Source: Fischerella muscicola PCC 7414 (GTDB lineage Bacteria; Cyanobacteriota; Cyanobacteriia; Cyanobacteriales; Nostocaceae). From it: DNA of 64,000 nt. The notes under the pieces are model-generated. The model worked only from the letters and a program-made list of their open reading frames with translations. It was not told the DNA's origin and made no database searches. Position numbers and translations under genes: made by a program. The stretch lies in contig NZ_AJLK01000033.1 in assembly GCF_000317205.1 (NCBI RefSeq), positions 1 to 64,000 on the forward strand. Direction: 5' to 3'. Below, piece after piece: positions 7,461-52,757 of the stretch. Within the stretch, counting starts at the first letter, position 1. Each line of letters opens with the position of its first letter.

Positions 7461-8003
7461 ATGGACACTCAAGAAAGAAACTCTACACCCTATCCTAATA
7501 TTCCAGCCTTTTTGGAAAGTGACGATAGAGAGTTTCGTGACCCTGGTGTACCTAGTACTGTAGCAGTTGCAGGTCATCCCATCCATCCTATTCTTGTGCA
7601 ATTCCCAATAGCTTTTCTTGTAGGGGCCTTGTTAACTGATGCAGTTTTTTGGTTCACAGATGATAGTTTTTGGGCAAGGGGTTCTTTTTGGTTAATCGCT
7701 GCTGGCTTGGTGGGTGGTGTGGCAGCAGCCCTCACAGGACTTATGGACTTTTTAAGAATCGGACGAGTCCGTAAGCGCACTGCTGGCTGGGCACACTTAA
7801 TCCTGAATGTGAGTGCTTTGGTGCTGACGATTATCAACCTAGTATTACGTTGGAATAACCCCATATCGGCTGTACTACCTTGGGGACTTGTAATCTCAGT
7901 ACTTGTAGCTACGCTTCTTGGCATTTCTGGCTGGTATGGCGGTGAATTAATATACCGACACAAAATTTCTGTGATTGGCAACGGAAATCCTAACCAACCT
8001 TAG
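7461..8003 (+). CDS. DUF2231 membrane protein
   Basis: A 180-residue protein with four predicted transmembrane helices and the DUF2231 signature AGHPIHPILVQFPIAFLVG near residues 37-55. His residues in GHPIHP and GWAHLILN are candidate haem or metal ligands. I chose the ATG at 7461 because AAAGGTGAG precedes it. The in-frame start at 7410 would overlap the DUF2993 gene by 23 bases and add 17 atypical residues. Function of the family is unknown. Confidence 0.75.
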   Translation: MDTQERNSTPYPNIPAFLESDDREFRDPGVPSTVAVAGHPIHPILVQFPIAFLVGALLTDAVFWFTDDSFWARGSFWLIAAGLVGGVAAALTGLMDFLRIGRVRKRTAGWAHLILNVSALVLTIINLVLRWNNPISAVLPWGLVISVLVATLLGISGWYGGELIYRHKISVIGNGNPNQP

Positions 8004-8134
8004 TGCAGCTTTGCCTACACCCCTACACCCATTTTCATTGGAGGGACTAAAGAAAAATTAAAAATTGTAAACTTTATATTTTTAATTTTCAATTTTTAAT
8101 TTTTAATTGACTTGTCCCGAACCCTGAGAAAAGC

Positions 8135-8548
8135 GTGTCAAAAAAAACACAAAGTTTTTATATTATAGTTTCTTTGCTCATCTTTACAGGGATGGGCTTT
8201 TTATTTAAATACTATACTGGTTTTGCTCATAAATGGTTCAATAATTATGGGGCTGCTGTTTTCTACGAAATATTTTGGTGCTTGTTTGCATTTCTATTTT
8301 TCCGGAGTCCAAAAGCTATTATTCAAATTCCTTTATGGGTCTTTATAATTACCTGTATATTAGAATTTCTACAACTATGGCATCCTCCCTTTTTAGAGCA
8401 AATTCGCGCTACTTTATTAGGTAAACTACTACTTGGTACAACCTTTGCTTGGTGGGATTTTCTTCATTACGCAGTAGGCTGTTTTTTAGGTTGGTTGTGG
8501 CTGCGACAATTACAAGGAAAGGGTTATGCAAAGAAAAGTCAAAGTTAA
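8135..8548 (+). CDS. DUF2809 membrane protein
   Basis: A 137-residue integral membrane protein with four hydrophobic segments and the DUF2809 pattern: [20 protein letters not shown] near the start and [15 protein letters not shown] near the end. A GTG codon at 8135 gives the best start and no strong ribosome binding site is visible. Its 3' end overlaps the next gene by 23 bases, which suggests translational coupling. Function unknown. Confidence 0.7.
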
Positions 8549-8753
8549 ACCAAAATCAAAGATGCAAAAAATAGAAGAAGCTGCCGATGGCAGTTTGATT
8601 GTACATTTAAAATCCCCGCCTGTTGATGGTAAAGCAAATGAAGAATTAATAAAAGTTTTATCTGAAAATTTTCATGTCCCACAATCTAGGATTAGAATTA
8701 AGTCTGGGTTATCATCAAGACAAAAGTTAATTGAAATAGACACTGATTTATAA
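8526..8753 (+). CDS. DUF167 (YggU-like) protein
   Basis: A 75-residue cytosolic protein of the UPF0235/YggU family, recognised by [20 protein letters not shown] (about 26-45) and the strand-turn-strand [19 protein letters not shown]. Biochemical function of the family is unknown. It overlaps the DUF2809 gene by 23 bases in another frame, and an AAGGAAAGGG stretch just before the ATG serves as ribosome binding site. Confidence 0.8.
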
Positions 8754-8940
8754 AGCCAAATAACATTTAAATAAAGTTAAGTAAAAATCAGAATTAGTGA
8801 AAAATTTAAATGATAGAATGGGAGTAAATTACAAATTGCTTTCTAAGCTCGGCAATACCCACCCTGGTTGAGATTCGCTAGATATGATGAGCATCCAACA
8901 ACCCCAATAAACTTTTAAAAATACTCTGAAATACAACAAA

Positions 8941-8971
8941 CTCGTTTTCCAGCCTCAGCTTAGAAAACGAG
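8941..8971. terminator. Probable terminator (CTCGTTTTC stem)
   Basis: CTCGTTTTC and GAAAACGAG form a 9-bp stem around a 13-base loop, 28 bases beyond the stop of the minus-strand glutathione-transferase-like gene and also downstream of the plus-strand DUF167 gene. It may serve both. Confidence 0.5.
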
Positions 8972-8998
8972 TGGGTAGATGCAAATTATATGAACAAA

Positions 8999-9619
8999 TC
9001 AATGCTGTAATTCTTCTTTAATTGAGATATATCTTGGCTGTGCTTTTACTCTTTCAATCCATGCTTGGATAGCAGGAAATTGTTTCAAATCATATCCACC
9101 TTCATCAGCTACATGGGTGTAAGCAAACAAAGCAATATCGGCAATAGTATAACGTTCGCCAACAAAAAAGTTATGACTCTGTAAATGATTTTCCATCAGT
9201 TTTAAGGCTGCATAACCAGATTCACGTTTTTGCTCTATGGCTTCCTTGTATTCTTCCGCTTTGCCTAGTATAGAAATCCAAAATCTCAATGGTGCAATGC
9301 AAGGCTTAAGGCTGCACTGTTCAAAAAACAACCATTGCATTACTTGCGCTCGTAAAAAGCGGTCATAAGGTAAAAATTCTGTGCCTTCACTTAAATAAAC
9401 TAATATGGCATTTGATTCTGCCAAATATTTATCTGGTTTCACCTCCAATAATGGAATTTTACCATTAGGATTTTTACTTAAAAACTCTGGTGTTTGAGTT
9501 TCACCTTTCAAGATATTCACCTCTACCCTCTCAAATGGCATACCAATTTGTGACAATAAAAGACGTATCTTGTAGCCATTTCCTGAAGGTAAAAAATCGT
9601 ACAATCTTAGCGTTTCCAT
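8999..9619 (-). CDS. Glutathione S-transferase family protein
   Basis: A 206-residue cytosolic protein with the two-domain GST fold. The thioredoxin-like N-terminal domain contains NPNGKIPLLEV and LAESNAILVYLSEG (glutathione-site cis-Pro and ES motifs, about residues 50-76). The C-terminal helical domain contains FVGERYTIADIALFAYTHVADEGG (N-capping box). The catalytic residue is not certain: the first strand reads RLYDFLPSGNGYKIRLLL, with a Ser and no Cys. The substrate cannot be inferred and there is no operon partner. Confidence 0.85.
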   Translation of the reverse strand: METLRLYDFLPSGNGYKIRLLLSQIGMPFERVEVNILKGETQTPEFLSKNPNGKIPLLEVKPDKYLAESNAILVYLSEGTEFLPYDRFLRAQVMQWLFFEQCSLKPCIAPLRFWISILGKAEEYKEAIEQKRESGYAALKLMENHLQSHNFFVGERYTIADIALFAYTHVADEGGYDLKQFPAIQAWIERVKAQPRYISIKEELQH

Positions 9620-10603: not shown

Positions 10604-11125
10604 ATGCCAAGAACTCAGAAAAACGATAATTTTATCGATAAATCTTTTACAGTCATGGCGGATCTGATCCTGAAGATCCTGCCGGCGAACAAAAAAGCCA
10701 AAGAAGCCTTTGTTTACTACCGAGATGGGATGTCGGCACAATCAGAAGGAGAATATGCCGAAGCCTTAGATAACTATAGACAAGCCTTAGAACTAGAAGA
10801 TGATTCCCTCGATCGCGGTTACATACTCTACAACATGGGATTAATCTACGCTAGTAACGGCGAACACGAAAAGGCTCTAGAGTTATATCACCAAGCACTG
10901 GAGTATAATCCCCGCTTACCACAAGCCTTAAACAACATTGCAGTAATTTATCACTACTTGGGTGAAAAAGCCAAAGAAGCAGGAGACGAAGACGGTGGCG
11001 AAGCACTGTTTGACAAAGCTGCTGACTATTGGATCAGAGCCATTCGCCTTGCTCCCAACAACTACATTGAAGCCCAAAACTGGCTGAAAACCACAGGTAG
11101 AATGCAAATTGATGTATTCTTTTAG
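10604..11125 (+). CDS. ycf3: Photosystem I assembly protein Ycf3
   Basis: A 173-residue TPR protein with the conserved N-terminus [20 protein letters not shown] and three tetratricopeptide repeats (about 35-68, 72-105 and 120-153). It is a thylakoid-associated chaperone that helps assemble PsaA/PsaB and peripheral subunits of photosystem I. Length and sequence match cyanobacterial and plastid Ycf3. It is followed, after a run of TGACCAT repeats, by gatC on the same strand. Confidence 0.95.
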
Positions 11126-11163
11126 TCCAGGGTCAATTGTCAATTGTCCAGAGTTTTTACAAA

Positions 11164-11209
11164 TGACCATTGACCATTGACCATTGACCATTGACCATTG
11201 ACCAATGAC
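11164..11209. repeat. TGACCAT heptamer tandem repeat
   Basis: Five perfect copies of TGACCAT followed by a partial one, in the short spacer between ycf3 and gatC. Such heptamer short tandem repeats are typical of filamentous cyanobacterial spacers. Confidence 0.9.
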
Positions 11210-11214
11210 TATCT

Positions 11215-11505
11215 ATGCTCGATCGCGAACAAGTCCGTAAAGTAGCCCATCTTGCTCGTTTAGAATTGACACCAGAAGAGGAAGAGCAATTCACTACCCA
11301 ACTGGCAAGCATTCTAGATTACTTTGAGCAACTCAGTGAATTGGATGTTAGTGATGTACCACCCACAACACGGGCTATTGATGTTAGCAACGTGACACGC
11401 CCTGACGATCTACAACCTTACAGCGATCGCGAAGCTATTCTTCAGAGTGCGCCAGAACAAGAAGGCGAATTTTTCAAAGTGCCGAAAATTCTCAATGAAG
11501 AATAG
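11215..11505 (+). CDS. gatC: Asp-tRNA(Asn)/Glu-tRNA(Gln) amidotransferase subunit C
   Basis: A 96-residue protein starting [19 protein letters not shown], the typical GatC opening, with [18 protein letters not shown] in the middle and an acidic, extended C-terminus. GatC wraps around and stabilises GatA in the GatCAB complex, which amidates misacylated Glu-tRNA(Gln). gatA and gatB are not in this window. The ATG begins 5 bases after the tandem repeats and no good ribosome binding site is visible. Confidence 0.92.
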
Positions 11506-11630
11506 GTTGATGGTTGGTTGTTGATGGTTGATTGTTGATGGTTGGTTGTTAATGGCTAATTGTTGGTGGTTTAAGATAATTCCCAACAAACAACAAACAA
11601 CAAACAACCACCAACACACATCCATCAAAG
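11506..11630. repeat. Degenerate tandem repeats GTTGATGGTTG / AACAAACAACA
   Basis: The gatC to GST-like spacer is made of repeats of GTTGATGGTTG followed by runs of AACAAACAAC in the complementary sense, so the transcript could fold on itself. Similar material is seen at 32400-32470 and 60510-60560. Confidence 0.75.
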
Positions 11631-11640
11631 GAGGATAACT

Positions 11641-12612
11641 ATGGGTTTGGGAATTCTCAAGGATGGTAAATGGTTATCTGAACGGGAACAGGAAGACTCA
11701 GAAGGTAAATTTATCCGTCCTTCAACTACTTTCCGTAATCAGATTACCGCTGATGGTGCGAGTGGATTTAAAGCTGAAGCAGGGCGTTATCATCTGTATA
11801 TTTCCTGGGCGTGTCCTTGGGCGTGTCGCACTGCGATTATGCGCCAACTGAAAGGACTGCAAGATATTGTTGGTATGTCTGTGGTTGCTCCCGAAATTCA
11901 CGACAACGGCTGGGAATTTGCAGATGAACCAGGCTGTATTCCTGATACAGTCAACGGCGCTGATTATCTCTGGCACATTTATCTCAAAGCTGATCCTAAC
12001 TATAGCGGGCGTGTCACAGTTCCAGTTTTATGGGATACACAAACCAATACTATTGTCAATAACGAATCCCGCGAAATTATGCGGATGTTTGATACTGAGT
12101 TTCATCATCTTGCTCAGAATAATGTAAATTTTTATCCAGAAAATTTACAAAAGATGATTGACGAGACAATAGATGCTATTTACCAACCGATTAACAATGG
12201 TGTGTATCGGGCGGGTTTTGCAACCAAGCAAGCAGCCTATGATCAAGCAGTAACAGAACTATTTGATGCTCTTGAGCATTGGGAAAAAGTTTTAGGAGAG
12301 CAACGCTATCTTTGCGGGGAGCGAATTACTGAAGCAGACTGGTGTATGTTCACAACTTTGTATCGCTTTGACCCAGTCTATTATGTGCATTTCAAATGCA
12401 ACTTACGCCGGATTGTAGATTATCCTAACTTGTGGAATTATCTCAAAGACTTGTACCAACAGCCTGGTGTCAAACAGACTTGTAACTTAGACCACATCAA
12501 GCGACATTATTACCGCAGTCATCCCAAAGTTAACCCGACTCGGATTGTTCCGAAAGGGCCACTGATTGATTTTGATGCTCCCCATAATCGCGATCGCCTG
12601 TTTGCAAAATAA
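11641..12612 (+). CDS. Glutathionyl-hydroquinone reductase (Xi-class GST, YqjG/ECM4-like)
   Basis: A 323-residue protein with the Xi-class active site YISWACPWACRT (Cys58 as predicted catalytic cysteine, second Cys at 62). Further family motifs are NNESREIMRMFDTEF near 140-154 and RITEADWCMFTTLYRFDPVYYVHFKCN near 223-249. These enzymes remove glutathione from glutathionyl-hydroquinones in the cytosol. The length equals the family norm. A consensus AAAGGAGG ribosome binding site lies 7 bases before the ATG. Confidence 0.9.
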   Translation: MGLGILKDGKWLSEREQEDSEGKFIRPSTTFRNQITADGASGFKAEAGRYHLYISWACPWACRTAIMRQLKGLQDIVGMSVVAPEIHDNGWEFADEPGCIPDTVNGADYLWHIYLKADPNYSGRVTVPVLWDTQTNTIVNNESREIMRMFDTEFHHLAQNNVNFYPENLQKMIDETIDAIYQPINNGVYRAGFATKQAAYDQAVTELFDALEHWEKVLGEQRYLCGERITEADWCMFTTLYRFDPVYYVHFKCNLRRIVDYPNLWNYLKDLYQQPGVKQTCNLDHIKRHYYRSHPKVNPTRIVPKGPLIDFDAPHNRDRLFAK

Positions 12613-43225: not shown

Positions 43226-44227
43226 CTATGATATTACACTGAATTTTCTTTTTGTGTTGAGCAAGTATTGATTCAGGGAACTGATAATTTTTTTGAGAAA
43301 CAACATTATAAAAAATATTCTTTCTGTATGTCTAAATCCAAAAACATTTTGAATCAAATTATATGCTGTTCGTTGACTGTTATGTTTAAAATCAGGAGAT
43401 AATATTAAAGTTTTTTCCAAGAATTGCAGGTACATTCCATAGTCAACTTTTAATGATTCTCGTGCCAGTTCAAAATAAGATAAAGCTAATGCACAACGAT
43501 ACTTAATTGTTAATTGGTTTGACTGTATTAGCTTGTTTTGTGCTTTTTGTAATACTAAACTTTGGGATTCTATCCAACGAGATTTGCTACAAGTGGAAAC
43601 TGTCACATTGCCGTATCTTCTATACACTGAATAGCAACCTGGTTGATATACTACTTTGGCACCATTCATTACTACTGATAAGAAAAAATCTCGATCCTGT
43701 GCAGCTGATAAGCTTTCATCCCATCCACCACTGTTTTCGATGGCGCTTCTTCTGTAGAGTAAAGAAGCAACCGCAGTCCACCAATTTGCTAGTAACGACT
43801 CAAGAATATCAGCTTGTGTTGCAGCAATTTCTATGCGACCTAAAAAACTTGTTCCATCTGAATTGTGATATTGATGTCTCCAATCACCATAAACAACATC
43901 TGCTCCAGTCGTTTCTAAATAACTTACTTGTCTGGCAATTTTTTCAGGTAATATATAGTCATCTGCATCTAGGTACTGGATATACTCTCCTTTTGATATC
44001 TGAAAGCCATAGTTTCTGACATGATTTCCGCCTTGATGAGGTAGAGATTTCCAGATAAGTTTATCACCGTAGCTTTTGATAATTTCTAATGAATTATCAG
44101 TTGAACCATCATCAATAACAATAATTTCGAGATGAGGATATGTCTGCTGTAAGCAGCTATCAATTGCTTCCTGCAACCATTTTTCTGCATTAAAACAAGG
44201 AATGATTATTGAGACAAGTTTTGGCAT
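43226..44227 (-). CDS. Glycosyltransferase family 2
   Basis: A 333-residue protein with a GT-A fold: VSIIIPCFNAEKWLQEAIDS at the start, DDGSTDNSLEII near 37-48 and the metal-binding LDADDYILPEKIARQ near 84-98. WDESLSAAQDRDFFLSVVM follows in the acceptor region. It transfers a sugar from an NDP-sugar, probably at the cytosolic face of the membrane. It is the last gene of the minus-strand polysaccharide cluster; 400 bases separate it from the Wzt-like gene, so it may have its own promoter. Confidence 0.88.
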   Translation of the reverse strand: MPKLVSIIIPCFNAEKWLQEAIDSCLQQTYPHLEIIVIDDGSTDNSLEIIKSYGDKLIWKSLPHQGGNHVRNYGFQISKGEYIQYLDADDYILPEKIARQVSYLETTGADVVYGDWRHQYHNSDGTSFLGRIEIAATQADILESLLANWWTAVASLLYRRSAIENSGGWDESLSAAQDRDFFLSVVMNGAKVVYQPGCYSVYRRYGNVTVSTCSKSRWIESQSLVLQKAQNKLIQSNQLTIKYRCALALSYFELARESLKVDYGMYLQFLEKTLILSPDFKHNSQRTAYNLIQNVFGFRHTERIFFIMLFLKKIISSLNQYLLNTKRKFSVIS

Positions 44228-44624: not shown

Positions 44625-45902
44625 TTAATTCATAACTTTCCATTCTCGGGGTTGATAAAATAAAGATTGACTAGTAATCGTATTTGATTTCACTGTAAAT
44701 CTAAAAGATTCGACTGCATCAAAAGAGTAAGCACCTTCTTTAATAAAAACTTTAGTATTGTAGACACCAGGATTCAAACAGCAAAAAGGCATATACATTT
44801 GTAGTTCATTTTTGCCTGGTAAGACCTCTAAATACTCATTATCGTTGGCAGCAGTGAGATATAAGATCCGTCCATTTTCTCCACCAACATCTGTAATTGT
44901 GACGCATAAATTAGCATTAGTTACTCTCCGATGTGCTTTGCATTCTACACATAGAGAAATAGACTCACCACTTGTAGGTGTTGCTACAATATTGCCTTGT
45001 GCATCTTTAAAATATACAGAAGTAATATCTATACCTGTGCTTTCACTCTCAGATTTATCCGGCAAAACCAAATAACCTGGAGATTTTTCTGTCCCAGCTA
45101 GACACAAATCTTCTTCATATTTACGCACTACAGTATCTATATCGCCGGTAGTAATTAATTTACCTTTTGATATATACACTGCCGAAGTACAGACATTTAA
45201 AATAGCTGGTGGATTATGAGAAACTAAAATAAAAGCAGTGCCGTTATCTCGAAGTTTAGCTAGTCTGCGATGGCATTTCATTCTAAACTTAATATCTCCA
45301 ACTGCTAAGACTTCATCAATTAGTAAAATGTCTGGCTCTATATGGACAGCACAAGCAAATCCTAGTCGTGCTGCCATACCAGAACTATAGGTTTGTACAG
45401 GTGCATCAATAGCATCAGCAATTTCAGCGAAATCTATGACATCCTGAAATCTTTCTTCAATTTCTTTTGTAGATAGACCCAAAATTGACATATTAGCATA
45501 AATATTTTCTCGCCCTGTCAAAATTGGATTAAACCCTGCTCCTAAGGCAATTAATGGTGCTATTCTACCTCTAACTCTGACTCTGCCAGTATCGGGCTTA
45601 ATTAAGCCACTAATAATGCGTAGTATGGTACTTTTACCAGCTCCATTTGAGCCTATTAACGCTAGTGCTTCTCCTCGTCTTAATTGAAAGCTAATATCTT
45701 TCAGTGCCCAAAATTCTTTTGGTCTTAAGACATCACTGTTTCTATTGACGCCAAACAGTTCTGTGGTGATATCTTGCACACCATATAATAAAGATTTTTT
45801 TAAGTTTCTACAAAATTTTTTAGAAACATTCTCTACTGAAATTACTACCTCAGAATCGTCTTGAGGCTGGATAGAAATCTTTTTTTCGATTAAATCAGTC
45901 AT
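44625..45902 (-). CDS. Polysaccharide ABC exporter ATPase with C-terminal substrate domain (Wzt-like)
   Basis: A 425-residue protein. The ABC domain (about 15-260) has Walker A GSNGAGKS, the signature region YSSGMAARLGFACAV and Walker B DILLIDEVLAVGD. An extra domain (about 275-425: beta-rich, with VYFKDAQGNIVATPTSGESI, LYLTAANDNEYLEVLPGKN and CCLNPGVYNTKVF) resembles the carbohydrate-binding domain of Wzt from E. coli O8/O9a, which reads the capped end of the glycan before export. Its stop-to-start distance to the permease gene is 2 bases, so the two are translationally coupled. Confidence 0.9.
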   Translation of the reverse strand: MTDLIEKKISIQPQDDSEVVISVENVSKKFCRNLKKSLLYGVQDITTELFGVNRNSDVLRPKEFWALKDISFQLRRGEALALIGSNGAGKSTILRIISGLIKPDTGRVRVRGRIAPLIALGAGFNPILTGRENIYANMSILGLSTKEIEERFQDVIDFAEIADAIDAPVQTYSSGMAARLGFACAVHIEPDILLIDEVLAVGDIKFRMKCHRRLAKLRDNGTAFILVSHNPPAILNVCTSAVYISKGKLITTGDIDTVVRKYEEDLCLAGTEKSPGYLVLPDKSESESTGIDITSVYFKDAQGNIVATPTSGESISLCVECKAHRRVTNANLCVTITDVGGENGRILYLTAANDNEYLEVLPGKNELQMYMPFCCLNPGVYNTKVFIKEGAYSFDAVESFRFTVKSNTITSQSLFYQPREWKVMN

Positions 45903-45904
45903 GA

Positions 45905-46777
45905 TTAAGAACTTACTCTTTCAACTACGAAAGGCATGGCAAGACGAAAAGCGATCCAAGTCAGTAGTAAACCAATAATAGTAATTGTACTGACTACCCA
46001 AAATCCTAAAGGTTCTGATACTACTCCTGTGGTTGCTAACTCTCGAGTTGTGACTAATAGAGGAGTTACAGGATTAAGCTTCACTAAATATCCAAATGTT
46101 CCTTCGTTAGGAACTGCATAGACTACTGGAGTTAAAAATAGCCAAAATCCTGTGATTAAACTTAGCCCTTTGGATATATCTTGATATAAAACTCCAAAAG
46201 GGGCTAATAAAATACCAATGAATGTTCCTAGTAAAACTAGGTGAATTAATGCTACTGGCGCTATAATCACCGTCCAACTTACGGAAACACGAAAAAATAT
46301 AAATAATGCCACTATCAAAATTGTTTTTATGCCAAAGTTAAAAAACACTTCGCCTAGCTTTGCTAAAATCAGTGCTTCTCGAGGGAAATTAACTCTGGCT
46401 AACATTGGCTTGGCAACTGTCACGGCTTGCACTGGGCCGTTTAATGCTTCTACAAATGTTTGCCACAGAGCAGTGCTGAACATGACGTAAGCTGGATAAG
46501 GTATATCTGTCACCCCGACATTAATAACTTGGGCATTATTGGCAAGGGTAAAACTAGCTGCCATGACAATAGGGGGTAAGAAAGCCCAGGCTATTCCTAA
46601 AAATGATTGACGGTACTGGGCACTAATATCACGTACCATTAGTCGCCAGGCGAGTTCACGAGAAGCGAGTAAGTCTCGCCACATTTGTTGGAGTAATCGG
46701 AGGGGATGTTTCAGGCTACTTTCTGGTGTATGAATCACCTCAGGTAGCTGATGTTTTGAATGCATGTTTGGCTTCAA
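45905..46777 (-). CDS. Polysaccharide ABC exporter permease (Wzm-like, ABC-2 type)
   Basis: A 290-residue membrane protein with about six transmembrane helices. The N-terminal WRDLLASRELAWRLMVRDIS followed by AQYRQSFLGIAWAFLPPIVM is the gate-helix region typical of Wzm/TagG permeases. It forms a dimer with the Wzt-like ATPase encoded 2 bases downstream and moves a lipid-linked glycan across the plasma membrane. Confidence 0.9.
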   Translation of the reverse strand: MKPNMHSKHQLPEVIHTPESSLKHPLRLLQQMWRDLLASRELAWRLMVRDISAQYRQSFLGIAWAFLPPIVMAASFTLANNAQVINVGVTDIPYPAYVMFSTALWQTFVEALNGPVQAVTVAKPMLARVNFPREALILAKLGEVFFNFGIKTILIVALFIFFRVSVSWTVIIAPVALIHLVLLGTFIGILLAPFGVLYQDISKGLSLITGFWLFLTPVVYAVPNEGTFGYLVKLNPVTPLLVTTRELATTGVVSEPLGFWVVSTITIIGLLLTWIAFRLAMPFVVERVSS

Positions 46778-46913: not shown

Positions 46914-48404
46914 CTACCGCGATCGCAGTTTTCTGGCAACGCTTCGGGGTATATATAAAGGGTCATATGAAGATTTGATGATGATTGCCCGGAGTCTGCC
47001 AAAATATTTGTCACTGGGGTTGCAAGGGTAACAAGATAGATGAGGGACAGCTTGAGAAATCAAATCGAGCTGATACTTGCCATTGAGGCGACGGTTTTCG
47101 GCAATACTAAGCATTAAAGCATAGGTGCGAGCAGCGTTAACAATGGGGATTCTCTGGATATTACTAAGGTCATACAATTGTTCTTTGGAACTTTGCCAGC
47201 CGGCTAGGCGTTGTTCGATGTAAAACCTGTCTCGCCAATCCATATGTGCTTGGGGAGTTTGCTTCACCCATTCTAACCACTGACGTATACCTGCGATCGC
47301 ACTTGAGTTCAACGGTTCGCCATAGGTTTGGGCAATTTGTTGGGTGCAGATTTCGGTGTCGTCTATGGTATTAGGCAGAGAATTACGCCACATTGCTTTA
47401 CCCACTTCCATGCACCAACCACCAACAGAAATTCCCTCTAGGGAATCTCGTACACTTTGGAGAAAAGGCAAGGCGTCACCCTGTGAAACATGTCCTGCGC
47501 TATGTTCAGTAACGAGATGCTGACGGTTGGCTTGACTGTTGCGTCCATGCAAAAAGATGTGCTTATATCCGAGTTTTTTTGCTAGGGTAGCTGGGAGAAT
47601 GCGATCGGCTACTGACATTCTGGCAGCAATCCGGGTAAAGGGTGCGATGTTGATACCGCCACGATATGCCATTGCTAGTACTAATCGTGAATCAACACCC
47701 GCCGAAAGTCCTAACCACACTTTGCTTTGTTTTTGATAAAGTCGCCGCAGTGCTGTGATCATACTTTGGCTCAACAGTTCCAAAGCCTCTTCATAGTCAA
47801 GATCAGGATTGATTGGCGGTAGCAAAGGTCGGGGTTGAATGCTACCGTCTTTGAGTTCAATAACTTGACTAGGTAAAAGACGACTGATGTCTACAAAGCG
47901 TGAAAGTGGTGGTGTAAACCACGACAGCCCTTGTTGGTAATATAACTGCCGAGAATCAGCTTTGGGTGACAGTATATCAGCAAGTAAAGCTGGACTACTT
48001 GATACCCAGACTTGACCGTCGCGTGTTGTTCCATAAAAGCAACCGAGAAGGCCGGAGGCATCCATGTGTACCTTGCCATTACCGATTAACACCCAACGAC
48101 CTGCCCAACTGGCATAGAGGTTAGGTACATCGGCGCTGGCTGTCTGAGCAATCTCTGCTAGTGGTTCGGAACGGGATTCTAGGGTTTCCACAGCCACTCC
48201 CAAGATTACCCAAGTAGTCCCGTTTGCATCGGTTGTCCAACTAGCAAGGAGTTCGGGACAATAGGAAATCCATGTGGAGGCGTCGAACTGGCAACAATGC
48301 CAGTCTTCATATACACGAAAACTTTCTGGTCCAATCACAAACTGGCGACGGTGAGGCCGCATCATTAATGGGGAATTATTAGTAAGCACAGATTCTTTTT
48401 GCAT
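46914..48404 (-). CDS. Asparagine-synthase-like protein lacking the glutaminase cysteine
   Basis: A 496-residue protein. Residues about 95-200 resemble the glutaminase-like half of asparagine synthases (YASWAGRWVLIG, DASGLLGCFYGTT) but there is no catalytic Cys2, so it cannot use glutamine in the normal way. Residues 205-490 hold the PP-loop ATPase part: LGLSAGVDSRLVLAMAY, where canonical SGG-x-DS is SAG-V-DS. Such proteins occur in polysaccharide and lasso-peptide clusters as amide-forming enzymes. Here it is between the exporter genes and two glycosyltransferases, so modification of a sugar or acceptor is the likely role. Confidence 0.78.
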   Translation of the reverse strand: MQKESVLTNNSPLMMRPHRRQFVIGPESFRVYEDWHCCQFDASTWISYCPELLASWTTDANGTTWVILGVAVETLESRSEPLAEIAQTASADVPNLYASWAGRWVLIGNGKVHMDASGLLGCFYGTTRDGQVWVSSSPALLADILSPKADSRQLYYQQGLSWFTPPLSRFVDISRLLPSQVIELKDGSIQPRPLLPPINPDLDYEEALELLSQSMITALRRLYQKQSKVWLGLSAGVDSRLVLAMAYRGGINIAPFTRIAARMSVADRILPATLAKKLGYKHIFLHGRNSQANRQHLVTEHSAGHVSQGDALPFLQSVRDSLEGISVGGWCMEVGKAMWRNSLPNTIDDTEICTQQIAQTYGEPLNSSAIAGIRQWLEWVKQTPQAHMDWRDRFYIEQRLAGWQSSKEQLYDLSNIQRIPIVNAARTYALMLSIAENRRLNGKYQLDLISQAVPHLSCYPCNPSDKYFGRLRAIIIKSSYDPLYIPRSVARKLRSR

Positions 48405-48440: not shown

Positions 48441-49514
48441 TTAACTCTGGGATGAGGCCGTCATAGTAGATGTTGGTGGCTGTTGTGGAGGGATTTGATT
48501 TGGCGATCCTTGCAAGTATTTTTTTGCATAGCGAGAGGTAAGATAATGGTTTAACGCCTTATCTATTTGTCGGAGAATTTTCCCTACCACTCGAGAGCCA
48601 AGTTTGCCAAGGGGAAGTTTACGGACGAGGGGGTTGACAATTGTCATATCTCGCCGCCATCCTAAGCGTTTGTACTTGTTTTGGAAGTATTCATCTTCGC
48701 TCAGATTCCACTTATCACGTAAGCGTTTCAAACTTGCTAGTTCCCAAGCATCACTCCACCGCAGCATATAAAAGTGTAGGTCTGTCCATTTTAAGGGCGG
48801 GCCTGGTACATAGGTTACTAAGGATTCAGGTTCCAAGTAGACTGTACCGCCAGCCTCGTTAACCATAATACACAAATCTACGTGTTCTTTCGTATTCAAC
48901 AGTCCTTCATCTAAAAGACCAATCTGATCAAATATTTCTGTGCGTACCATCATACAGTGAAACTCTGCTAACCCGGTTTGTTGCCGTTGCAGTTGGGGAC
49001 GTACATCTGCTACTTTCCGTCCTTGCTTATAAATTTTTTCAATTATTCGCCGTCTGGTAGTCTCGCCTTTAGTTTCTACTTTCACACCAGATTCTCCACC
49101 TGCACAATGCACTTCTGTGTGTAGTGGTAGGTATTGACAGATGAGGGGACTAACTATAGTGGCCCCAGTTGCTTCAGCACAATCTATCAATGGCTGCAAC
49201 CAACCAGGTGTAACTACAACATCGTTATCTATAAAGACAACATATTTACTGTTAACTTGACGTAAACCGATGTTTCTAGCATGGTTGGGGGAAAGGTAGT
49301 GATCAGTGCGAATTAGTTGAAATTTCTTCTCAACTGCTTGAGTTGCGAGGTAATTTTTGATGTGAGTAGGTGAACCTCCATCAACATAGATTAACTTGAA
49401 GGGGTTATTTGTGTTTTCGTAAATACTTTCCAAGGATTCACGAGTGTAGCTAAAACGCTCACGAGGAACAACGACAATAGTAACTTCTGGCTCAAGAATT
49501 TGAGATTGATTCAT
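48441..49514 (-). CDS. Glycosyltransferase family 2 (divergent)
   Basis: A 357-residue protein with a GT2-like N-terminus: VTIVVVPRERFSYTRESLES, LIYVDGGSPTHIKNYLA and the metal-site FIDNDVVVTPGWLQPLIDCA. GLLDEGLLNTKEHVDLCIMV follows in the acceptor part and YAKKYLQGSPNQIPPQQPPT forms a polar C-terminal tail. It probably adds a sugar in the same pathway. The gap to the asparagine-synthase-like gene is 36 bases, so they are likely one transcript. Confidence 0.82.
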   Translation of the reverse strand: MNQSQILEPEVTIVVVPRERFSYTRESLESIYENTNNPFKLIYVDGGSPTHIKNYLATQAVEKKFQLIRTDHYLSPNHARNIGLRQVNSKYVVFIDNDVVVTPGWLQPLIDCAEATGATIVSPLICQYLPLHTEVHCAGGESGVKVETKGETTRRRIIEKIYKQGRKVADVRPQLQRQQTGLAEFHCMMVRTEIFDQIGLLDEGLLNTKEHVDLCIMVNEAGGTVYLEPESLVTYVPGPPLKWTDLHFYMLRWSDAWELASLKRLRDKWNLSEDEYFQNKYKRLGWRRDMTIVNPLVRKLPLGKLGSRVVGKILRQIDKALNHYLTSRYAKKYLQGSPNQIPPQQPPTSTMTASSQS

Positions 49515-49591: not shown

Positions 49592-50881
49592 TTAGGTGTA
49601 TTTAGGACTAGCGATGGAATCTATGCTTTGCTCTGAGCATGGCTGTAATTTATCTACTATGACTTGCTGATAAATTTTTACTAGTTCATCATTGAGGTGA
49701 TTAATGTCGTAATGCTTTTCTACATAAGCACGACCAGCTTTACCCATTTGTTCCCATAATTCTGGATGCTCAATTAAATAAGTTAGTTTATCTGCAATCG
49801 CATCTGCATCTCGCTCTGTAACTAATAAACCAGAAATACCATCTTGAACTAGTTCTGGAATGCCACCGTGCCGAGTAGCAATGACTGGTAAACCCATAGC
49901 CATTGCTTCTTTGAGGGTATTTACAGGAGCATCTTGATTACCATCTTTAGCGGTGACACTGGGAGCAATAAAAATGTGAGTATTATCGATAATTTGAATA
50001 ATCTCTTGTTGATTTTTCCAACCTAAGAGCTTGATTTTTTCTGCCGCATCCAGTTCTGTAATTACTTGCTGCAAATGTGCTTTTAAGTGTCCATCGCCAA
50101 TGATATTGTATTCTAGGTTGGGATAGGTTTTTAATACTTTGGCAACGGCACGAATGGCATACTCTATTCCTTTCTTTTCAACCAAGCGACCAGTCGTAGC
50201 AATACAGATTTTGCCATCTGCTACAGGCTTGCGTACCCGAAAAGTAAATCGACTACAATCTATTCCAGAACCGTGAACAATTATTTTCTTTTCATCACAA
50301 CCTAGTTGAATTGCTCGCTGACGAAAAAACTCACAATTTGCTAGAAAAAAATCTCCTTTGAGAAACAGTTGATTGTATATTTTCTCTCCATACTCTTTGA
50401 CATACCAGCTGATATCATAGCCCCGAAAAGAAGTCACTAACTTACCTTTGATCGCACCAATTTCACGATAAATTATTCCCTCGTTGCCCAGGATGCCAAA
50501 TTGACAGTGAATGATATCGTATGGTTCTGCATCTAACAAAGGAATAATTGAGTATAAAATTCTTAGAACTGGTGCATCTTTGTTGAACTTTAAAAATTTG
50601 AGCGATCGCAATATTACTAATGGAGCTTTATGAAAATTTGTAATAATTAACCACAGTGCTTTGAGCAGCCGCCAAAGTTTATTATGAGGCATGTGAGGAG
50701 CATAAAAAGTGCATTTTAGCAAGTCATATTTTTCTACATCTGGATGAAATTTAGTAGTATCATCAGGTCTATAACCGTAAATATGAACTTCATGCCCTCG
50801 GCAAATTAAGCCTGTAATTTGATTCAAAATAAATGTTTCCGATATGACCGGAAATTTATTAACTATGAAGGCTATTTTCAT
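49592..50881 (-). CDS. Glycosyltransferase family 4
   Basis: A 429-residue GT-B enzyme, colanic-acid-type. N-terminal domain with FIVNKFPVISETFILNQITG, the link IHCQFGILGNEGIIYREIG, and the C-terminal nucleotide-sugar domain with GRLVEKKGIEYAIRAVAKVL, APSVTAKDGNQDAPVNTLKE and AMAMGLPVIATRHGGIPELV, where the E of the E-x7-E motif is visible. It is the first gene of the cluster on the minus strand. Confidence 0.9.
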   Translation of the reverse strand: MKIAFIVNKFPVISETFILNQITGLICRGHEVHIYGYRPDDTTKFHPDVEKYDLLKCTFYAPHMPHNKLWRLLKALWLIITNFHKAPLVILRSLKFLKFNKDAPVLRILYSIIPLLDAEPYDIIHCQFGILGNEGIIYREIGAIKGKLVTSFRGYDISWYVKEYGEKIYNQLFLKGDFFLANCEFFRQRAIQLGCDEKKIIVHGSGIDCSRFTFRVRKPVADGKICIATTGRLVEKKGIEYAIRAVAKVLKTYPNLEYNIIGDGHLKAHLQQVITELDAAEKIKLLGWKNQQEIIQIIDNTHIFIAPSVTAKDGNQDAPVNTLKEAMAMGLPVIATRHGGIPELVQDGISGLLVTERDADAIADKLTYLIEHPELWEQMGKAGRAYVEKHYDINHLNDELVKIYQQVIVDKLQPCSEQSIDSIASPKYT

Positions 50882-51158: not shown

Positions 51159-52757
51159 ATGCTTGTGGAGTCGCTACGATCAAAATCAGTGACTTTGCTG
51201 GAATCAAGTTCTATGTCTTTAACTGAAGAAATTCTTTCGCAATTACCAGGTGATGTTTTAGGGGGATTGCGTCGTAGCGATCGCATTTTATCATCCATGA
51301 GAGAAGGTAAAGTTCCAGTACCGACGGTAGTCAGAGAAAATCAACAAGAGTTGGGTGCTGTCGATTGGGATATTTTAATTTGCGGTGGTACTTTAGGGAT
51401 TTTAATTGGCTGCGCCCTTGCCCTGCAAGGATTGCGGGTAGCATTGATAGAACGGGGTAGATTGCGGGGGAGAGATCAAGAATGGAATATTTCCCGTAAA
51501 GAATTGCAAGTATTCTTAGAATTATCTCTATTAACAGATGCAGAATTAGAAAAAGCGATCGCTACAGAATACAACCCTGCCAGAGTTGGCTTTGATAACC
51601 GCGTCGAGATTTGGGTAGAAAATGTATTAAATATTGGTATAGATCCAGTGTATTTACTGGAAACTTTAAAACAAAAATTTCTGGCAGCTGGTGGAAATTT
51701 ATTTGAAAACACACCTTTTGTAGAAGCGGTAGTTCACCCAGATGGAGTGATAGTCAACAATCAATACAAAGCTAGGTTGTTAATCGATGCAATGGGACAC
51801 TTTTCTCCCATTACCCAACAAGCGCGACAAGGACGAAAACCAGATGCGGTGTGTTTGGTAGTTGGTAGTTGTGCCCAAGGTTTTCCAGAAAATCACACTG
51901 GCGATTTAATTTTATCTTTTACACCGATTCAAAAGCAGTGCCAATACTTTTGGGAAGCTTTTCCTGCTAGAGATGGCAGAACTACTTACATGTTTACCTA
52001 TATGGATGCAGATCCACAACACATAGGATTAGAAGCTTTGTTTGAAGAATATCTGCGCTTCATGCCAAAATATCAAGGTGTGGAATTGTCACAACTAACA
52101 TTCCAACGGGCGCTATTTGGTTTCTTTCCCTCCTATCGTCAAAGCCCACTGCATACACCTTGGAGTCGCATTCTCCCCATCGGAGATAGTAGTGGAAATC
52201 AATCTCCTTTAAGTTTTGGTGGCTTTGGGGCGATGGTGCGTCACTTGTACAGATTAACCCAAGGTATTCATGAAGCACTGCAAACTGATCAACTATCTGC
52301 TAATGCGTTAGCACTACTGCAACCATATCAACCTAGCTTGAGTGTAACTTGGCTATTTCAAAAGGCCATGAGTGTTGGTGTCAATCAAAAAATTGCTCCT
52401 GAACAAATTAATGAGTTGCTATCAGCAGTATTTTCACAAATGCAACAATCGGGTGACATGGTTTTAAAACCATTTTTACAAGATATCGTACAGTTTCCTG
52501 CCCTAACACAAACCTTATTAAAAACAAGTGTTGCCCATCCAGGTATTGTTGCTAAAGTTATCTCCCAAGTAGGTTTACCAGCCTTATTAGATTGGATGGT
52601 ACATTACGGAAATTTAGGCGTATATTCGGCGCTATTTTGGCTCAGTCAAAGATTAGAACCTTGGGAGAAATATTTACCCAACATTCCTAAATACTATTGG
52701 CATCGCTGGGTTGATGCTTGGAAATATGGTTCTGGTGGTGATTATTTGGATGAGTAG
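51159..52757 (+). CDS. cruP: Lycopene cyclase CruP-like FAD oxidoreductase
   Basis: A 532-residue flavoprotein. The FAD motif WDILICGGTLGILIGCALAL begins at about residue 71 and is followed by LRVALIERG. Later segments (LLIDAMGHFSPITQQARQ, ILPIGDSSGNQSPLSFGGFG) match the CruA/CruP group. The N-terminus LPGDVLGGLRRSDRILSSMR and length (about 530, shorter than CruA) favour CruP, reported as a paralogous cyclase or cyclase-related protein also found in plants. A second ATG at 51213 is an alternative start. Confidence 0.72.
   Translation: MLVESLRSKSVTLLESSSMSLTEEILSQLPGDVLGGLRRSDRILSSMREGKVPVPTVVRENQQELGAVDWDILICGGTLGILIGCALALQGLRVALIERGRLRGRDQEWNISRKELQVFLELSLLTDAELEKAIATEYNPARVGFDNRVEIWVENVLNIGIDPVYLLETLKQKFLAAGGNLFENTPFVEAVVHPDGVIVNNQYKARLLIDAMGHFSPITQQARQGRKPDAVCLVVGSCAQGFPENHTGDLILSFTPIQKQCQYFWEAFPARDGRTTYMFTYMDADPQHIGLEALFEEYLRFMPKYQGVELSQLTFQRALFGFFPSYRQSPLHTPWSRILPIGDSSGNQSPLSFGGFGAMVRHLYRLTQGIHEALQTDQLSANALALLQPYQPSLSVTWLFQKAMSVGVNQKIAPEQINELLSAVFSQMQQSGDMVLKPFLQDIVQFPALTQTLLKTSVAHPGIVAKVISQVGLPALLDWMVHYGNLGVYSALFWLSQRLEPWEKYLPNIPKYYWHRWVDAWKYGSGGDYLDE

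Follow-up and report, generated by a model that had tools for sequence, protein, structure and literature searches.

In the 64,000-nucleotide window analysed here (Fischerella muscicola PCC 7414), we found an optional gene of a conserved polysaccharide export operon whose 496-residue product is predicted to retain the whole two-domain fold (Ntn and PP-loop) of asparagine and beta-lactam synthetases and carries an altered catalytic set. We propose, with a probability of roughly 40%, that this protein is an accessory, glutamine-independent, ATP-dependent tailoring enzyme of the exported glycan, with an amide or ester as the probable product; ATP use, acyl activation, the amide or ester product and the glycan substrate are elements that we infer. 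The protein belongs to a group that we name the DSR clade, defined by an Arg directly after the PP-loop Ser/Thr and by the lack of Cys2. The operon has the order GT4-GT2-X-Wzm-Wzt-GT2, where X is the window gene:

49592-50881, minus strand: GT4 glycosyltransferase, operon partner (Pfam PF00534; order conserved in relatives).
48441-49514, minus strand: GT2 glycosyltransferase, immediate upstream partner (Pfam PF00535; conserved neighbour).
46914-48404, minus strand: DSR-clade protein with the asparagine-synthetase fold, 496 aa, lacking Cys2 (ORF and translation, hhalign, AlphaFold2, PDB fold match).
45905-46777, minus strand: Wzm-type ABC permease for polysaccharide export, preceding Wzt (NCBIfam NF050109, Wzm/RfbD, E 4.5e-12; 46 bits, under the cut-off of 380).
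44625-45902, minus strand: Wzt ABC ATPase with C-terminal Wzt_C (Pfam ABC_tran and PF14524).
43226-44227, minus strand: GT2 glycosyltransferase at the operon end (Pfam PF00535; conserved).

The pyrophosphate loop of the window protein reads S234-A-G-V-D-S239, followed by R240, and there is no Cys in residues 1-30, which confirms the observation of an earlier note on this DNA (Cys2 absent, SAG-V-DS in place of SGG-x-DS). In an alignment of nine sequences (A1), the loop is SAG[VI]DSR in 7/9, with TGGIDSR and TAGYDSR found once each (1/9). Eight homologues in related genomes keep the ORF at 50-95% identity, and the loop and Cys changes are thus neither sequencing nor chance features. The dN/dS of the window gene against five orthologues was 0.12-0.23 (two of the five pairs had dS >1), while the adjacent GT2 and GT4 genes span a similar range (0.10-0.23) and Wzm and Wzt (0.05-0.12) and RecA (0.04) mostly lie lower. 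The window gene is therefore under purifying selection, and on these values we reject a decayed gene.

A Pfam scan of the window protein returned no family at E up to 1, and all NCBIfam matches were sub-threshold: the best was to macrolactam cyclases (NF033561, 32.4 bits against a cut-off of 300), asparagine synthase (TIGR01536) scored 13.5 bits against a cut-off of 267.1, and the WbpS-type family (TIGR03108) gave no match at E up to 1. Likewise, a single-protein phmmer search of the PDB yielded just three chance matches, all to antibodies. Alignment of the clade profile to the AsnB set with hhalign gave a probability of 99.3%, and a search with the profile A3 detected NAD synthetase (E 6e-4) and, more weakly, QueC and beta-lactam synthetase. 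The C-terminal half alone aligned weakly in profile-profile comparison (local E 0.0026, probability 11%; global E 6e-5, probability 37%). The same genome (6.9 Mb) encodes a separate canonical MCGI...SGGIDST protein on contig C62 and, on contig C109, a lasso-like cyclase that scores under its family cut-off.

When AlphaFold2 was given nine close rows, the model had a pLDDT of 49; with 34 diverse rows (alignment A5), the model was confident (mean pLDDT 91.6, pTM 0.90). Foldseek against the PDB ranked beta-lactam synthetase 1mc1 first (E 4.7e-14), followed by carbapenam synthetase, TsnB9, AS-B (E 2.7e-11) and human ASNS. VIA-align comparison of the predicted model gave Z 22.0 for carbapenam synthetase 1q15 (384 residues, rmsd 4.2), 21.9 for TsnB9 (7ylz), 21.7 for AS-B 1ct9 (359 residues, rmsd 3.7) and 21.4 for beta-lactam synthetase 1m1z, with matches spanning model residues 19/20 to ~462. 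Because these Z scores are tied at 21-22 over nearly the same span, both domains are predicted to be present and no single known enzyme is closest. The identification of the protein as an asparagine-synthase homologue, made in the earlier note, is thus supported by both hhalign and the full-length fold match; the likeness to beta-lactam synthetase raised there extends to the same two-domain fold, at a level shared with AS-B and TsnB9. We see no support for counting the protein among the beta-lactam synthetases.

The extent of the change had been understated: besides Cys2 and the canonical loop, the protein also appears to lack the residues of the glutamine pocket, the Asp of the S-G-x-G-x-D-E loop and the catalytic Lys. 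Columns were counted in A5, from which the plasmid rows were left out, among them a Pseudorhodobacter homologue (L032) with the loop TAGTNTR. The relevant segments of the window protein are:

48339-48353, minus strand: HRRQF, residues 18-22; residue 20 aligns with the N-terminal Cys of AS-B and TsnB9.
47685-47705, minus strand: SAGVDSR, residues 234-240, altered pyrophosphate loop followed by Arg240 (sequence and column counts).
47397-47423, minus strand: GGWCMEVGK, residues 328-336, counterpart of the AsnB loop S-G-x-G-x-D-E (hhalign and column counts).
47196-47216, minus strand: E-x-R-x-x-x-W, residues 397-403, a new clade motif (column counts).
47007-47027, minus strand: PCNPSDK, residues 460-466, at about the catalytic Lys position (fold-alignment end points).

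VIA-align matched model residue 20 to chain residue 1 (1ct9) or 2 (7ylz), and Cys occurs at this column in 0/34 rows of A5. Twelve canonical comparators each have Cys2, N-G-E, Asp103, the loop Asp and the loop Glu (12/12), with Lys (9) or Arg (3) at the RPK position. By contrast, Gly alone of the glutamine pocket N-G-E appears to be kept in A5 (G69, 34/34), the columns flanking it being mostly hydrophobic or variable in a register set by sequence. The AS-B loop SGEGSDE carries Glu348, Asp351 and Glu352 (counted on the alignment); in the clade, the loop Asp falls at a gap in the profile alignment, Asp is absent from the adjacent column 332 of A5, and Glu333 is kept in 19/34 rows (Ala or Gly in 14/34). 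Strong conservation is found elsewhere: G236, D238, S239 and R240 are each present in 34/34 rows, the new motif is kept at E397 (26/34), R399 (30/34) and W403 (33/34), and D392 (32/34) and R439 (31/34) are further conserved positions.

The catalytic Lys, which we take to be K449 of AS-B and K443 of beta-lactam synthetase, would lie at about residues 460-466, a placement based on the end points of the fold alignment (model 462-464 against chain 440-448 of the bacterial structures) and on the lack of a conserved Lys there. Columns 460-466 of A5 hold Lys in at most 6/34 rows and Arg in 0/34, and Lys plus Arg together reach at most 12/34 in any column from 440 to 471. Lys/Arg at 472 (25/34) and at 336 (28/34) could be substitutes as judged from the alignment. 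A catalytic Lys is described at Lys-466 of human ASNS and at its AS-B counterpart (PMC6748925). With equivalents of the catalytic Lys and the loop Asp apparently absent, canonical adenylation cannot be assumed. The Pseudorhodobacter homologue (L032:11878-13323), whose loop is degenerate, is perhaps a naturally inactive form.

Across 43 collected members, gathered with the clade's own profiles, Arg follows the loop in 43/43 (0/13 comparators) and a Met-Cys start is found in 0/43 (7/13 comparators). In a 55-row tree, the 43 members fall on one side of a branch with support of 100/99, and 16 cyanobacterial rows, including the window protein, form a clade with support of 100/100. The comparators in this tree were AsnB-type and three lasso-like proteins; near copies and fragments (L017, L020, L037, L055, L057, L074 and L128) and the short row L060 were left out, and L056, L058, L071, L082 and L133 are long-branch rows. 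The three lasso-like cyclases lie on the AsnB side, have loops of the form SGG[MR]DS[ST] and score 152-175 bits, below the NF033561 cut-off of 300; the tree therefore compares the clade with lasso-like proteins and not with proven lasso cyclases. The phylogeny suggested in the earlier note thus sets the clade apart, and special kinship with lasso cyclases, which the note had named for comparison, finds no support in the family score of the window protein or, with sub-threshold comparators, in the tree; we set a lasso cyclase aside as unsupported.

Clade members occur in cyanobacteria, proteobacteria, an actinobacterium, a haloarchaeon and prophages. Searching plasmid records by tblastn revealed homologues with 23-24% identity in Pseudorhodobacter, Rubrobacter, Rhizobium and Natrinema (where annotated, as 'hypothetical protein'); a prophage copy as query also found an E. 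coli plasmid and Microvirga, and profile searches of cyanobacteria added further members. No match was obtained by tblastn of phage records at E 1e-3 with the window protein and the prophage copy L036, or by blastn of E. coli genomes with the plasmid gene. Searches of Pfam and NCBIfam turned up no named family corresponding to this clade, and no description of it was found in the titles and abstract openings of the open-licence PMC literature. The fold and the remote family are already known, and the DSR clade is a separate, unnamed branch. One genome carries two diverged DSR copies 2 kb apart (L120:7585-9078 and 11001-12473, with TAGYDSR and SGGRDSR); the proteins between and beside them have no Pfam match, and similar ones were seen by eye in L119 and L123.

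Homologues (E <= 1e-3) are present in 9/100 related genomes, its own included, among them Fischerella thermalis PCC 7521 with a 95% identical copy. Eight of the nine carriers, again including its own, have the order GT4-GT2-X-Wzm-Wzt-GT2, in some with an extra gene before the last GT2; in the ninth (G052), the gene stands alone at ~50% identity. In the 100 genomes, the operon genes GT2, GT4 and Wzm were found in 46 (E <= 1e-80), 43 (E <= 1e-120) and 41 (E <= 1e-60), respectively. Pairing the strongest 62 of 80 GT2 places with all 58 Wzm places within 4 kb gave at least 35 GT2-Wzm pairs in 33 genomes. Their gap is <600 bases in 24 pairs (23 genomes), 1055-1297 in 3/35 (one a tandem GT2 in G011) and 1670-1783 in 8/35, the last being exactly the genomes with a window-gene homologue in the operon. 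Two genomes of one genus (G005 and G057) have an unrelated ORF of 203-207 aa on the other strand at the GT2-Wzm junction (L160:4554-5177, L161:4182-4793), which shows that this junction takes different inserts. Reading eight gene-less operons revealed the order GT4-GT2-Wzm-Wzt in 8/8 and the last GT2 in 6/8 (not L160 and L161), and a GT4+GT2 tree of 19 loci implies at least two presence changes among the 16 operon loci. Like-ordered operons mostly lack the window gene, which is therefore an accessory component of an export operon that is itself conserved.

No uronate-forming gene is present in the window operon. A promoter scan of the operon found 23 sites against 26.6 expected, none above chance, and terminator-like sites numbered 10 against 5.6 expected. 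A plus-strand ORF divergent from the operon (window 51159-52757) also lies beside it in L017, L018, L020, L022 and L023 and is possibly a stable flank. In another Wzm/Wzt cluster (L122:1460-6777), several extra genes lie between two Wzt-like genes, one of them a sulfotransferase by Pfam (L122:5902-6777).

The association with glycan genes extends beyond this operon. In the clade-1 loci L077 (Wzx by Pfam) and L078, GT4-GT2-X is accompanied by a Wzx flippase instead of Wzm/Wzt, in L078 with one membrane protein in between; a flippase also adjoins the gene in L119 and is one gene away in L120 and L123 (Pfam). At least two glycan genes lie within 5 kb in 12/15 clade-1 loci against 0/20 arbitrary stretches of five genomes, and at least one in 13/15 against 3/20, with none within 5 kb of L024 and L121. 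The 12/15 loci are not independent because they are partly orthologous operons (the window and L018 come from one genus, L019 and L021-L024 from the same family, and 6/7 are orthologous operons). The glycan reference set was taken partly from the window operon, L032, L034, L035, L045 and L046, so that the window locus, L034, L035 and L045 score self-matches; without the self-matching loci, 11/14 clade-1 loci have at least two glycan genes, while clade 2 has at least one in 2/8 (L124 and L126) and two in 0/8. In clade 3, at least one was found in 4/10 and at least two in 3/10, and prophage loci have 0/4; some of the stretches ended at contig ends.

A dehydrogenase match within 5 kb was found in 2/40 labelled loci, one of which is the reference itself. 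In L126, a UDP-glucose/GDP-mannose dehydrogenase lies directly upstream of a distant DSR homologue, and on the E. coli plasmid pCE1537-B a distant homologue is part of a capsule cluster in which wecB, wecC and a 75-aa ORF precede it. The Natrinema homologue has a flippase directly upstream, and Wzy_C proteins lie within ~3.3 kb of the gene in L080, L124 and L132; the annotated neighbours of the Rubrobacter homologue include no glycan gene. The pCE1537-B protein (L045:13053-15398) has an extra N-terminal part of 300 aa without a Pfam match, and the plasmid, which carries an ABC-type capsule cluster, is typed as mobilizable.

Scans of viral contigs identified five distinct contigs with a DSR gene, four of them mutually related. 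In these four (L036-L039 from IMG/VR; gene at around 8000-9515), the gene directly follows a tail-module BppU and/or beta-helix protein (Pfam), and a lysin comes after it, directly or one or two genes later (PHROGs identifies it as an endolysin in L036 and L038, Pfam as an amidase in L037 and L039); the next gene in L036 and L037 is O-antigen-ligase-like (Wzy_C). In the fifth (L040:2740-4317), the gene is close to a tail protein (PHROGs) bearing the carbohydrate-esterase domain SASA. Our guess is that the prophage copies serve lysogenic conversion of the surface glycan. An AsnB-family gene, asnH of Lactobacillus casei, is described as affecting phage sensitivity (PMC3885529).

Together, these data lead us to the following model. 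The GT4/GT2 pair would build a polysaccharide that Wzm/Wzt exports, and the synthetase domain would bind ATP via its altered pyrophosphate loop. It would then activate a carboxylate, most simply a uronic acid or other acidic substituent of the glycan or of a nucleotide-sugar precursor, which would be joined to an amine, or possibly a hydroxyl, straight from solution without glutamine hydrolysis. Since the glutaminase nucleophile appears to be lost, glutamine is probably not used, in agreement with the non-glutamine donor proposed in the earlier note. Arg240, Lys/Arg336, Arg399 and Glu397 would be needed to take over the work of the catalytic Lys and loop Asp because these usual residues seem to be missing. 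The absence of the gene from a like-ordered operon in most relatives is as expected of a decoration gene. WbpS/WbqG, AsnB-family enzymes that make uronamides in surface glycans (PMC7468200), are a precedent for action on sugar carboxylates (PMC7468200, PMC3684757). A bolder extension, which we regard as rather doubtful, is that an arginine-based set (the DSR loop, Lys/Arg336 and ExR...W) replaces Cys2, the loop Asp and Lys449 and that the enzyme gives exported glycans an amide or ester not described so far; the gene would then be an optional switch of surface chemistry, which phages would also carry for lysogenic conversion.

The main rival to a tailoring enzyme is a pseudoenzyme, i.e., a catalytically dead fold that would serve the glycosyltransferase/export complex as a scaffold or regulator, whether or not it binds ATP. 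The missing glutamine pocket, loop Asp and catalytic Lys would fit such a protein, as would the 14/34 rows with Ala or Gly at Glu333 and the TAGTNTR loop of L032. However, D238, S239 and R240 are invariant in A5, and R399, W403, D392 and R439 are conserved without being obviously needed by a scaffold; together with a dN/dS of 0.12-0.23, this makes the pseudoenzyme unlikely in our view. The loss of activity contemplated in the earlier note agrees with the missing catalytic Lys and loop Asp, whereas dN/dS and the 34/34 conservation of G236, D238, S239 and R240 oppose simple decay. We consider it quite unlikely that the protein uses ATP for another outcome, namely intramolecular lactam or lactone closure of the kind catalysed by beta-lactam or lasso synthetases, or ester or acyl transfer to a non-glycan partner. 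Beta-lactam and carbapenam synthetases do take the top Foldseek ranks, and the macrolactam cyclases of the weak NF033561 match (32 bits) share the lack of the Cys; yet VIA-align places AS-B and TsnB9 level with them, the NF033561 score is far under 300, the tree separates the clade from the three (sub-threshold) lasso-like cyclases, and 0/5 of the other operon genes scanned resemble peptide or beta-lactam biosynthesis.

An ammonia-dependent uronamide maker, resembling WbpS without its glutaminase and using free ammonia, seems improbable. AsnB-family uronamide enzymes are described in glycan clusters (PMC7468200), and UDP-sugar dehydrogenases lie near two distant homologues (pCE1537-B and L126), but these are the only two such cases, the window operon has none, and the catalytic Lys appears to be missing. 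That the protein is an ordinary glutamine-dependent asparagine synthetase, mis-started or mis-sequenced, is hardly credible: it shares the fold and remote homology, but the clade as collected lacks Cys2, the pocket Asn and Glu and a conserved Lys for catalysis, the TIGR01536 score is 13.5 bits against 267, and the genome has the separate MCGI...SGGIDST protein on C62. We reject it on the residues and the TIGR01536 score.

If the tailoring enzyme is real, surface polysaccharides would have a tailoring enzyme that needs no glutamine, shares the fold of asparagine synthetase and differs from the known members in its catalytic set, and carriers and non-carriers would form a natural experiment with polymers differing by one substituent. 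The prophage copies beside tail-fibre-type genes would then suggest that the same chemistry may matter in phage-host recognition. Should the protein instead be a pseudoenzyme, a dead fold would have been retained widely, and the label 'asparagine synthase' would have to be given to such genes with caution.

Among known systems, plasmid proteins recorded as 'hypothetical' or 'asparagine synthase-related protein' (for example QCC61358.1 and WP_193958546.1) belong to the same DSR clade at 16-22% identity to the window protein, and their records give no glycan function. Lasso macrolactam cyclases (NF033561) resemble it in an N-terminal domain without Cys2 and in the weak profile match, whereas the three lasso-like comparators lie on the other side of the tree and keep SGG[MR]DS[ST]. 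WbpS/WbqG (eps_aminotran_1, TIGR03108; PMC7468200) share the AsnB family, a glycan cluster and possibly a sugar carboxylate substrate; WbpS is described as a glutamine amidotransferase (PMC3684757), while the window protein lacks both a TIGR03108 match and Cys2. With AsnB (1ct9, TIGR01536), the fold and remote homology are common, but the window clade is without Cys2, the pocket Asn and Glu, the loop Asp and the conserved Lys. Beta-lactam and carbapenam synthetases (1jgt, 1mb9 and 1q15) are not known to have an N-terminal Cys either, and their two-domain fold is shared by the predicted model over residues 19/20-462. Where beta-lactam synthetase has K443, the clade shows no conserved Lys, and an Arg follows its loop. 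The setting differs as well, the window gene lying among polysaccharide genes and not antibiotic genes: Pfam assigns four of the five other operon genes scanned to glycan or ABC families, and NCBIfam marks the fifth as Wzm-like.
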